A DNA stretch of 43,508 nucleotides, taken from assembly GCA_017460625.1 (NCBI GenBank), contig JAFUAT010000005.1, positions 1 to 43,508 on the forward strand, in the 5' to 3' direction. Position 1 is the stretch's first letter; each line of letters opens with the position of its first letter. Made by a program: the position numbers and the translations under genes. Shown here in pieces: positions 2,898 to 23,194 of this stretch. Under the pieces are notes generated by a model, which worked only from the letters and a program-made list of their open reading frames with translations, made no database searches and was not told the DNA's origin. The stretch is from Candidatus Saccharimonadota bacterium. Its GTDB lineage: Bacteria > Patescibacteriota > Saccharimonadia > Saccharimonadales > Saccharimonadaceae.

Positions 2898-3229
2898 TCA
2901 ATAGTTATTTGCGATTTTGTATGCGTCAATAATTTCATCATCCCTAAGCGCTTGCGTAACATTGCACTCATCAACCAAGGCTCTAGTTAATCTTTCGCTA
3001 AAGCCGACATAGGTCACATCTTTACCAGCCCTCTTTGCACATAATACTGCAGGTATTAAATCAGTATCAGAACTTACTAGAATGATTCGATCTACCACAT
3101 TTTTTAGAGCATGGGTCGAATATTGATGGCATGAAGATCTTGCTTATCCATAACTAGATCATGCTTAGCCAGAATCTCTGACGCTTTGTAAAGGAAATTT
3201 TGCCCGTCAATATAAACGATATTTCTCAC
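2898..3229 (-). pseudogene. Broken NYN-domain (LabA-like) protein gene
   Basis: Two fragments in different frames form the two ends of a NYN (PIN-like RNase) domain. The 5' fragment starts at GTG 3229, reads VRNIVYIDGQN and stops at 3104. The 3' fragment (about 3170-2898, open in the other frame) reads VVDRIILVSSDTD, then GKDVTYVGF. NYN proteins keep the acidic residues of IDGQN and S(G/S)D(S/T)D, and both are present. The roughly 50-70 residues that normally separate these motifs are missing, and a -1 shift joins the parts. I read this as an internal deletion plus frameshift, so the product is probably non-functional. Start choice rests on the -10 at 3241-3236, which places the GTG 6 nt downstream. 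Confidence 0.7.
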
Positions 3230-4306: not shown

Positions 4307-5551
4307 TTAAAAAGTCCAGTTTATTGTCTTTGCAGACGATAAACTTATTGTCGTAGTTCCTGCGTAATTGTTTACGCCGTAAACAATTACGTTTCCGTCT
4401 TTATAGCCGGCCACATATGAGCCAGTCAGACGATTCTTTGCCCCTCTCGGAACCAGCTTTACAGATACATCGTTTATTTTCCCGACAGGCGAAGTTAAAG
4501 TGAGCGTGCCATTATTATATTTGACACCCTTAACGGTCAACCCTATCGAGTTGATGTCGGCCGGCAATATCGTCAGTCTAAATTTATTAGACTGCAGTAA
4601 TGCCTTATCTGCTTTAAGTTTTCCGTTTTTTAGCGTAATCGTAAAATACGGAGTTTTTCCGCCGTAACCATTTACGTTTACATTATTGAAAAACTTTACA
4701 CTGTAATCGCTTGCCAAGAGTTCCGTCCCGTTACAATAGACTGAAATTTTAATGTCCGCAGTCTGGCTCTTATTAGAGCTAGCAGTCGATATCACATGCT
4801 TTTTTCCGTTGTAAACAACGGAGCTGGTGTTAAACACGGTGTAGACATTATTGTTAATCGTAACCGTATTTACCGCTGCTTCTTCGCTGGGAATAGGCAC
4901 AGGCGTCGGCGTAATTTCTTCTTCCGAAGAACCACCGCCTTCTGTTCCGCCCTGAGTTCCTTCGCCAGCATAAATAATTCTGCCAGCAGAATCTCTAGTA
5001 AACGGCACTTGCGAAAGTGTTCTCCAGTCGTAGAGCATCTCATCCCAAGCTTGCTTAGTCATAGTCGGGATCTTGCTTTCATCAATTCCAGTGGTCTTCG
5101 TATTATCTTTTCTTGAAGAAGATTTTTGTATAGGAATATATAATTCATTCTTGTACTCTGTCTTCGAGAAAAACTCAAATGAAGCAGTTTCTCCGTAGTC
5201 ATACATCAGCCATTCTGCCCCATCGGAGATAAAGAAACATCTCTGTACGTATTTCCCATCTTCGTCGGTTATATACGCGCAAATTGCGTCATAACCAGAA
5301 GCCGTGTACCACTCAGGCTGGTTGTAATACTTAAAACTACTGCCTCCCAGTGCATCAATTTCTTCAAAAGATTCAACTTCAAAATCCGGCTGGATTATCT
5401 CTACAGATTCAATTGAATCCTGGATAATTTCATCCGAATCTACAACGCAAAGCTCGTCGAACTCGTCAAAATCTTCTGCAAAAGCAGGAGTATTCACGAG
5501 CCCAAACACCAAAACAACAGCTACAATTATTGCAAAAACACTCTTTTTCAT
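4307..5551 (-). CDS. Secreted protein of unknown function
   Basis: 414 residues. Residues 1-25 form a signal peptide ending near AFA-ED. A very acidic stretch (about 26-65) follows, then a domain with aromatic motifs (about 68-150), a Gly/Glu/Pro linker around 195-220 (EGTQGGTEGGGSS, then TPTPVPIPSEE), and a C-terminal beta-rich region (about 225-414) with the motif VVYNGKKHV. The last part looks like Ig/YDG-type repeats of Firmicutes surface proteins, but I cannot name a family. No LPXTG or transmembrane anchor is present. It has an AAAGGAGG Shine-Dalgarno, a near-consensus promoter and a leader of about 105 nt, unlike its leaderless neighbours. Horizontal origin is possible but unproven. 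Confidence 0.85.
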   Translation of the reverse strand: MKKSVFAIIVAVVLVFGLVNTPAFAEDFDEFDELCVVDSDEIIQDSIESVEIIQPDFEVESFEEIDALGGSSFKYYNQPEWYTASGYDAICAYITDEDGKYVQRCFFISDGAEWLMYDYGETASFEFFSKTEYKNELYIPIQKSSSRKDNTKTTGIDESKIPTMTKQAWDEMLYDWRTLSQVPFTRDSAGRIIYAGEGTQGGTEGGGSSEEEITPTPVPIPSEEAAVNTVTINNNVYTVFNTSSVVYNGKKHVISTASSNKSQTADIKISVYCNGTELLASDYSVKFFNNVNVNGYGGKTPYFTITLKNGKLKADKALLQSNKFRLTILPADINSIGLTVKGVKYNNGTLTLTSPVGKINDVSVKLVPRGAKNRLTGSYVAGYKDGNVIVYGVNNYAGTTTISLSSAKTINWTF

Positions 5552-9150: not shown

Positions 9151-9155
9151 ACTTT

Positions 9156-9182
9156 TATTTTAGCACAGACTATGCTAAAATA
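9156..9182. promoter_or_regulatory. Symmetric divergent promoter of trpS (-) and tRNA-Ala (+)
   Basis: A 10-bp perfect inverted repeat (TATTTTAGCA at 9156-9165, TGCTAAAATA at 9173-9182) with a 7-bp centre places one extended -10 (TGCTAAAAT) on each strand. The minus -10 ends 6 nt before trpS; the plus -10 ends 8 nt before the tRNA. Confidence 0.8.
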
Positions 9183-9189
9183 AAACCAC

Positions 9190-18170: not shown

Positions 18171-18206
18171 AAAAAAAGAAATCAGACAAACGTCTGATTT
18201 CTTTTT
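18171..18206. terminator. Terminator of the ribosomal protein operon
   Basis: AAGAAATCAGAC (18176-18187), loop AAAC, GTCTGATTTCTT (18192-18203), with a T-run on each strand. It follows rpsI on the minus strand by about 22 nt. Confidence 0.88.
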
Positions 18207-22105: not shown

Positions 22106-22330
22106 TTAATCTTTGAGTCTAAATGAAATACGGCCTTTCGTAAGATCGTAAGGCGTAAGCTCCACTTCAACTCTATCACCCGGCACGAGACGAATATAAT
22201 TCTTGCGCATTTTACCGCTCATGTGGGCAACAATAATATGACCATTCTCGAGTTCAACCCGAAACTGGGTATTCGGCAAAGCTTCAGCAACAATGCCAGT
22301 GAGTTTAATCACTTCCTTTTGACTAGCCAT
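22106..22330 (-). CDS. infA: Translation initiation factor IF-1
   Basis: 74 residues, an OB-fold that blocks the ribosomal A site during initiation. [24 protein letters not shown] and [18 protein letters not shown] are family signatures. Its promoter gives a leader of only about 6 nt. First gene of the block infA-rpmJ-rpsM-rpsK-rpsD-rpoA-rplQ-rplM-rpsI. Confidence 0.98.
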
Positions 22331-22343
22331 AAATTACTCTTTT

Positions 22344-22372
22344 ATTATATCGCATTTTCTAGCATTTGTAAA
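22344..22372 (-). promoter_or_regulatory. Promoter of the infA-rpsI ribosomal operon
   Basis: TTTACA (22372-22367), 17-bp spacer, TATAAT (22349-22344), 13 nt before the infA ATG. The -35 ends exactly at the outer base of the 152-bp palindrome. Confidence 0.75.
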
Positions 22373-22523
22373 GAATAAAATATACTAATTTTGCTTGCAT
22401 TTTTAAGGCTGAAAATTTGAAAAAATAGTGATGGAAAGCCGGTACTGAAATACCGGAAGGCTTCCATCAAATTATTTTTTTCAAATTTTCACCTTTGCAA
22501 GCAAAATTAGTATATTTTATTCT
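22372..22523. repeat. 152-bp palindromic element between the sortase and infA
   Basis: Perfect 28-bp terminal arms (22372-22399 and 22496-22523), then a second arm pair (GAAAATTTGAAAAAAT around 22411-22426 and 22473-22490), then a GC-richer inner hairpin (GATGGAAAGCC/GGCTTCCATC with GGTA..TACC at the tip). The right arm contains the last sense codon and stop codon of the sortase. It can act as a terminator in both directions (T-runs flank the inner hairpin). Size and perfect arms also suggest a MITE-like mobile palindrome. Confidence 0.88.
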
Positions 22524-23194
22524 ACTAATATCGCCCTGGTAAACTGCCTTGAAAGATAAGTGCTTTGCGCCTGTGACCATTCTCCCGTACAAGAAATCAA
22601 CGTCACAGACTCTTTTCCTGCCGTTGGCGTCTTAATCGCCGTAGCCATATAATCATTTGAATCACTAAGCGAAACTGCAATGTTTTCTACCACTGAATAG
22701 CGAAACTTCTTTCCATCCCCTCTTTCGATTGTAATTATATCGCCTTCGCTAAGCGTCGGTAAATCCTTAAATACACCCTGCACATGTGGTCCACCATTAT
22801 GTCCGTCAATCAAAAGCGTCCCGCCCTCGCCTGGTTTACCAGAATCGTAATACCAACCTACATCAAAGATATTATTTGGCGTCGAAAGTTCGCCAGCTTG
22901 ATTTATGCCCATTGGAAGTACTCTGGCATTTTTAATCCCAAGTTTGTCAATAGAGAGATATCTCGGCCGATCCGCCGCTACTGTGTATTCGGTAATTTCC
23001 TGTGCCGTCGGAGCAACTTCTACGAGTTCATCACCCATGTCCATCTGCACATCACGTTCGCTGCCTTCCTTTTCGGAATAATATTGATGCTCCCAGGTGG
23101 CAATTCTTATCAAAAATACTAGGAATATGACGCCAAAGATGGCCATGGCCACCCATTTAGCGATTGTCCACCCATTACGAATCTTAAGACTCAT
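22517..23194 (-). CDS. Sortase (class E/F-like)
   Basis: 225 residues with an N-terminal transmembrane anchor (about 12-32) and the sortase beta-barrel from about 75. The catalytic triad is H132 (LIDGHNGG), C202 (LISCTG) and R220 (QFTRAILV). The first residues overlap the secY end by 11 nt, implying coupled expression with the translocon. In most bacteria adk and map occupy this place. The last codon and stop lie in the 152-bp palindrome. Substrate motif unknown. Confidence 0.92.
   Translation of the reverse strand: MSLKIRNGWTIAKWVAMAIFGVIFLVFLIRIATWEHQYYSEKEGSERDVQMDMGDELVEVAPTAQEITEYTVAADRPRYLSIDKLGIKNARVLPMGINQAGELSTPNNIFDVGWYYDSGKPGEGGTLLIDGHNGGPHVQGVFKDLPTLSEGDIITIERGDGKKFRYSVVENIAVSLSDSNDYMATAIKTPTAGKESVTLISCTGEWSQAQSTYLSRQFTRAILVE

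Follow-up and report, generated by a model that had tools for sequence, protein, structure and literature searches.

The window analyzed here, a stretch of 43,508 nucleotides, contains between a sortase gene and infA a palindrome of 152 bp (22372-22523), and the question raised by this locus is whether such a structure is a fixed part of the junction or an element that arrived from elsewhere. The original prediction had described a near-perfect palindrome with perfect arms of 28 bp, one of them carrying the last codon and stop of the sortase and the other ending at the -35 of the infA promoter. Inverted-repeat analysis of the window bears out this description. The two outer arms, to which no strand is assigned, lie at 22372-22399 and 22496-22523, 96 nt apart, and are complementary at 28 of 28 positions, while a nested pair of arms of 21 nt (22405-22425 and 22476-22496) is 90% matched. 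The palindrome ranks first among the 22 inverted repeats of the window (arms of at least 14, distance of at most 300), and its minus strand folds at -74.3 kcal/mol, compared to a mean of -22.98 for shuffled sequences (z-score -14.58; 0 of 200 shuffles equal). The sortase gene (22517-23194, minus strand), recognized from its ORF and a Pfam Sortase match, ends within the arm at 22496-22523, which hosts its final 7 nt, namely the last codon, the stop and one more base. The other arm adjoins the promoter-like site of infA (TTTACA-17-TATAAT, 22344-22372, minus strand), which begins at 22372, the last base of the arm. The infA gene itself, encoding IF-1, lies downstream (22106-22330, minus strand; ORF list and Pfam). 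Elsewhere in the window, two short near-perfect palindromes with arms of 15-16 bp (18173-18206 and 9153-9185) resemble ordinary bidirectional terminators.

The original prediction had also proposed that the palindrome might be a mobile element, and that further copies should be sought in the same genome. A sequence search of this genome (G000; 711,783 bases in 14 contigs) returned four further strong copies, on contigs 14, 6, 12 and 4. We named the copies by contig, C2 being that of the window. All of them have in common a central hairpin of approximately 70-90 nt, and their outer arms of approximately 17-30 bp are unlike between copies and near-perfect complements within each copy. The copies on contigs 6, 12 and 4 are alike as far as CTACGG, beyond which the arms are unrelated. 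C2 and C14 also have an inner arm in common (CTAATTTTGCTTGC/CTAATTTGCTTGC), which indicates that part of an arm can travel with the element.

Across the genus, 26 out of 99 genomes show some match to the core, and 15 of them a strong one (E <= 1e-9), at many different loci. This patchy presence, together with the further copies in G000 and the empty sites in relatives described below, supports mobility. We folded 35 copies and one split copy of this family (family 1), and obtained a near-uniform pattern of a conserved core between matched, locus-specific arms; pairing is weaker in one of two neighboring copies of G048 (L056), in a few copies of G016 and in some copies at contig ends. In the window, the conserved core hairpin occupies 22405-22496 of the minus strand and bears at its apex the hairpin CCGGTATTTCAGTACCGG (22439-22456, minus strand), which is common to other stem families. 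The weak matches have only this 18-base tip in common and belong to other giant hairpins with different stems. In a collection of 84,980 species, exact matches to the tip come mainly from Candidatus Saccharibacteria, mostly from ruminant-gut assemblies. Those from other phyla, in genome contigs, come without the conserved stem. Spread via viruses was also considered, but the single exact tip match in viral contigs has no long stem and was taken as chance.

After exclusion of the split copy and of those cut by contig ends, the core of the window and 30 further copies were aligned (alignment A1). The alignment of these 31 cores is good: some stretches and loop positions are invariant, and 97.5% of the stem cells are paired. 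Overall, 96 cells are altered on both sides of the stem and 15 on one side only, and none of 500 shuffles, which leave the relatedness of the copies in, reached as high a value. Family 1 was seen between genes only, with 0 out of 36 copies inside a clear gene; in 7 of the 36, the nearest uncurated ORFs are a left-minus, right-plus pair, that is, the copy lies between divergent genes. Several copies of a single genome (G094; L069-L073 and L075-L077) have their outer arms in common and mostly lie beside related-looking genes of approximately 420-550 codons, and there the hairpin and the neighboring gene may be multiplying together.

The core that recurs at these unrelated loci is absent at orthologous sites of related genomes. 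The sortase-infA region could be matched in 166 of the 174 genus genomes searched, and we read the junction in 50 of these 166. Most of the 50 have 31-124 bases between the two genes and no long hairpin; some contain short palindromes, and rearrangement is seen in a few. The original prediction had suggested this comparison of junctions, and had expected of a fixed terminator a palindrome kept at this one place and without other copies. We found copies elsewhere and the site mostly empty, an outcome that goes against a fixed terminator. Giant hairpins occur at 10 of the 50 junctions, and their cores belong to several unrelated families: family 1 in G000 and G149, a second kind in G035 and G083, and other kinds in G009, G093, G088, G076, G046 and G094. 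As judged by eye, the arms resemble each other across some of these core families (AAAGATTAAAATAGC in G083, AAAGACTAAAATAGC in G009), and so some palindromes may predate the core.

Two other copies of G000 can be compared with empty sites. C14 sits between converging genes, and at this place in G149 the two stop codons directly abut (reading frames read by eye); the hairpin is also absent in G142 and G070. C4 sits between diverging genes, with near-exact empty flanks in G142, a shorter stretch without the core in G149 and a hairpin of another family in G083. None of the empty sites, in G149, G142 and G070 for C14 and in G142 for C4, contains a palindrome able to supply the arms. When C14 and C4 were compared by eye with their empty sites, no target duplication was seen, the boundaries being uncertain by a few bases. 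The site of C12 is occupied in relatives by an ordinary palindromic terminator (G149, G007, G142), by other giant hairpins (G070, G083, G035) or by neither. Near the site of the contig-6 hairpin of G000, the region upstream of nusA in G149 (L226) carries units resembling terminators, with A and T tracts and stems of the form GTCAGG..CCTGAC, and a similar unit is present in G007.

Several unrelated core families have a common architecture and common sites. Scanning of 425,160 of the 711,783 bases of G000 returned 26 inverted repeats with perfect arms of at least 14, about half of which are giant hairpins. Across all loci compared, those of relatives included, clustering by the inside sequence gave four families of at least three members, composed of 49, 11, 10 and 6 hairpins. 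We compared the arms of those members with arms of at least 15 (43, 6, 8 and 6, respectively). In the three smaller families, 0 out of 58 arm pairs reach the score of a 12-nt match, although the cores are alike. In family 1, where some arms are the conserved inner stem, 14 out of 903 pairs are similar. The F6 family (core CGCTCC...GGCC...AAGTCTTA) is found at five sites of G000, each with arms unrelated to those of the others. The core orientation of families 5 and 6, the homology of arms across families and the overlaps with stop codons were read by eye. In two query stretches (L239 and L251), further repeats, such as those at 2968-3052 and 4970-5064 in one query and at 1364-1461 in the other, recur often in relatives.

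Hairpins of the sister families also lie within genes and leave the reading frames open: mnmA contains two of them, and tsaD and an rsuA-like pseudouridine synthase gene one each. Compared with relatives, the length differs by multiples of 3 at the second mnmA site (C1b; 6 out of 6 relatives shown), at the rsuA-like site (C1c; 9 out of 9 shown) and at the tsaD site (C10) in the 3 of 10 relatives that match on both sides. In other species, the same mnmA, tsaD and rsuA-like sites are occupied by other families, so that sites are reused by different cores. A core can itself be entered. In the split copy (L080, contig 59 of G018), a 78-nt double hairpin (2520-2597) interrupts a family-1 core precisely at its loop, without an accompanying duplication; a second full copy of this insert was not found among the loci compared. 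Hairpin loops can therefore be entry points, but since C14 and C4 have empty sites without an earlier palindrome, entry into loops is not the sole route.

We then asked where the outer arms come from, since these are largely locus-specific and perfectly complementary, reach native start and stop codons and change in step. At the start of mnmA, comparison with G070 and G149 shows that the left arm takes in the start codon and ribosome-binding region of the native gene, and the right arm lies inside the gene and has the reverse complement of this stretch at its end; G142 has a short version at this site and G009 an independent one. Similarly, one arm of the contig-9 hairpin of G000 (C9) covers the end of a gene, with its stop and the preceding conserved codons EKI, an ending that is mostly kept in relatives. 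At the same gene end, G018 carries a different core whose arm also takes in the stop, and G006 has no hairpin. As the arms reach into neighboring start and stop codons, at least for the outer arms one of each pair is native flank and its partner an inverted copy. The sortase stop within the arm of the window fits the same pattern.

If the arms were matched through selection on an RNA, G-U pairs would be tolerated on the transcribed strand. In 35 copies (the split copy excluded), the outer arms form 49 G-U pairs on one strand and 48 on the other, and the forward strand is the more stable in 18 of the 35. This count, in which the direction of transcription was uncontrolled, thus shows no strand difference that would point to RNA-strand selection of the arms. 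The original prediction had also considered a double-stranded RNA processed by RNase III; with regard to this possibility, the equal counts and the in-frame sister copies argue that arm matching is kept at the DNA level. The same count in the core gives 93 and 57 G-U pairs on the two strands, and the core may thus be under strand-specific constraint.

Template switching between the arms of inverted repeats is described in the available portions of two sources as homogenizing the arms and inverting the spacers (PMC8604942; PMC8794818), and active matching of arms has been argued for the palindromes of Nematomorpha in the portion of the source at hand (PMC6649704). Both outcomes are present here. 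Homogenized arms are seen in the 28 paired positions of the window and in the 96 two-sided compared to 15 one-sided changes of the alignment. At the sortase-infA junction of G000 and G149, the arms show three differences by eye, each matched on the opposite arm, and the core is flipped between these same arms (84 out of 98 positions identical when turned, with the loop reversed). Recombination between the arms could be an alternative cause of this core inversion.

Our preferred reading, to which we assign a probability of roughly 0.6, is that the palindrome of the window arose by insertion of a small, mobile, non-coding hairpin (family 1) into a Saccharibacteria-type genome from the gut, with arms extended and homogenized by template switching. 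The hairpins are best read as palindromic selfish elements, comparable to the Rickettsia palindromic elements, whose arms are rewritten by template switching during replication. Once a core is in place, the DNA polymerase would switch template across the hairpin, each arm would be repeatedly rewritten from the opposite one, and the palindrome would grow outward by inverted copying of its flank. The core may be recognized or copied via its conserved tip and bulges rather than its ends, which is the least certain step. As a probable by-product, the hairpin would here shield infA from sortase read-through, and it may act as both terminator and insulator, as the original prediction suggested. Against this reading we count the inner arm common to C2 and C14, the 14 similar pairs of family-1 arms and the copies of G094 with common arms. 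No insertion event was caught, the closest relative being only 81% identical at the sortase-infA locus. A broader proposal, which we advance tentatively and would not bet on, is that of a class of mobile DNA recognized or copied by its hairpin tip and making its own ends out of target sequence: after placement of the core, the nascent strand would fold back over it and 15-30 flanking bases would be reverse-copied into perfect arms, with several unrelated core families behaving alike, flipping between their arms and lodging in frame inside essential genes.

Other explanations account for part of these observations. The cores could enter the loops of pre-existing local palindromes, mainly bidirectional terminators, in which case the arms would be the old palindrome and require no special copying. 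The interruption of the G018 core exactly at its loop without duplication is in line with this, as are the native terminators at the C12 site (G149, G007, G142), which are long palindromes, the arms that look alike around different cores at the infA junction and the short palindromes at the otherwise empty junctions of G051, G132 and G145. We consider it unlikely, however, because the empty C14 and C4 sites offer no source for the arms, the arms are longer at occupied junctions than at nearly all empty ones, and hairpins over start codons or within genes are not terminators. We hold it very improbable that the palindrome is a fixed terminator or insulator, selected as such and with its RNA stem kept by compensatory selection. 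Its position after the end of one gene and before the promoter of the next, its hairpin of -74 kcal/mol, the paired stems of the 31 cores and, at C12, its presence where relatives have a canonical-looking terminator all agree with that function. Yet no intrinsic terminator (G+C stem of at least 5 pairs and U-tract) was found in 22250-22600 with loops limited to 3-8, and arms selected as RNA should not have equal G-U pairs on both strands. A simple terminator was rejected as the sole reason for the palindrome, given the copies between divergent genes, the sister families in genes and the site being mostly empty in relatives.

The dispersed copies, the size and A+T-rich palindromic form, and the inner arm common to C2 and C14 would all suit a classical MITE whose terminal inverted repeats are acted on by a transposase supplied in trans and whose arms have merely diverged. 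As a rule, transposable elements keep their ends and lose their middles; the present hairpins reverse this rule, since their middles are kept and their ends are local. Moreover, the arm pairs remain matched while diverging, C14 and C4 show by eye no target duplication, and the Y1 transposase family is absent from G000 and found in 8 out of 170 genus genomes, which include none of the 15 genomes with strong family-1 matches. We therefore regard a classical MITE as quite improbable, and the MITE-like nature first suggested for the palindrome is, taken strictly, not supported. Profile searches for a possible autonomous partner covered PF01797 (Y1) and PF00078 (RVT_1). With the latter, G000 has two matches and 95 of the 170 genus genomes at least one, and a reverse transcriptase priming hairpin RNA from a target nick, with snap-back copying of the flank, would yield target-derived arms. 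This is highly improbable, because the carriers G016 and G018 are recorded without a match, the 95 recorded with one do not include G092, G095, G149 or G142 (some assemblies being incomplete and a few genomes of the genus perhaps not drawn), and no link was found between the RVT_1 genes and the hairpins. The two genes of G000 (L256, 1358-2524; L242, 1209-2459) each follow a gene of 304-318 codons and encode enzymes that we take to resemble those of diversity-generating retroelements. An artifact of assembly or amplification, such as a fold-back chimera, is scarcely credible: the assemblies are drafts and some copies lie near contig ends, but palindromes are orthologous across species, frames are kept through the insertions and cores are conserved in independently assembled genomes.

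Should template switching indeed prove to be the source of the arms, well over a hundred species of the genus could be compared for the natural traces of a mutational process that is otherwise studied with reporter assays. The in-frame copies also show how conserved enzymes of very small genomes can acquire new peptide segments.

Nothing was found in the open-licence literature on palindromic elements of Saccharibacteria or Patescibacteria, and Rfam covariance models matched the hairpins only below threshold, with microRNA-precursor families. The bacterial MITEs (Correia, ERIC, RUP) are likewise small, non-autonomous, dispersed stem-loop elements, but most are described, in the portions of the sources available, with terminal inverted repeats and target duplications, whereas we found neither conserved ends here nor, by eye, a duplication at C14 and C4. 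The REP and REPIN sequences moved by RAYT are also extragenic palindromes with a structured tip, but the present hairpins are several times longer, and this system was ruled out by the absence of a Y1 transposase in G000. In the accessible part of the source, the coding palindromes of Nematomorpha mitochondria are perfect inverted repeats with no excess of imperfect ones, for which template-switch repeat conversion was proposed (PMC6649704). The perfect repeats are shared with the present hairpins, but those are animal mitochondria and the same part describes no dispersed conserved core. The double-hairpin and palindromic elements of organelles are hairpin repeats with suggested mobility (PMC5910586), and differ in their organellar setting and in that the part of the source consulted describes no target-derived arms. 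The Rickettsia palindromic elements appear in the portions available as palindromic repeats of approximately 100-150 bp in small genomes, both intergenic and in frame within conserved genes (PMC10969869, PMC2229807). The 152-bp palindrome of the window and the in-frame sister families in mnmA, tsaD and the rsuA-like gene resemble them by description, not by sequence. The Rickettsia elements, according to the same portions, have terminal inverted repeats of 12 bp, whereas here the ends are locus-specific and the center is conserved, and family 1 was seen between genes only. We have not filed the palindrome under MITE, for want of conserved ends, nor under REP, in the absence of the transposase, nor as a Rickettsia element, the likeness being one of description. 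It is a real, mobile and family-forming hairpin, which in its behavior joins features of a Rickettsia palindromic element and of a template-switching palindrome.
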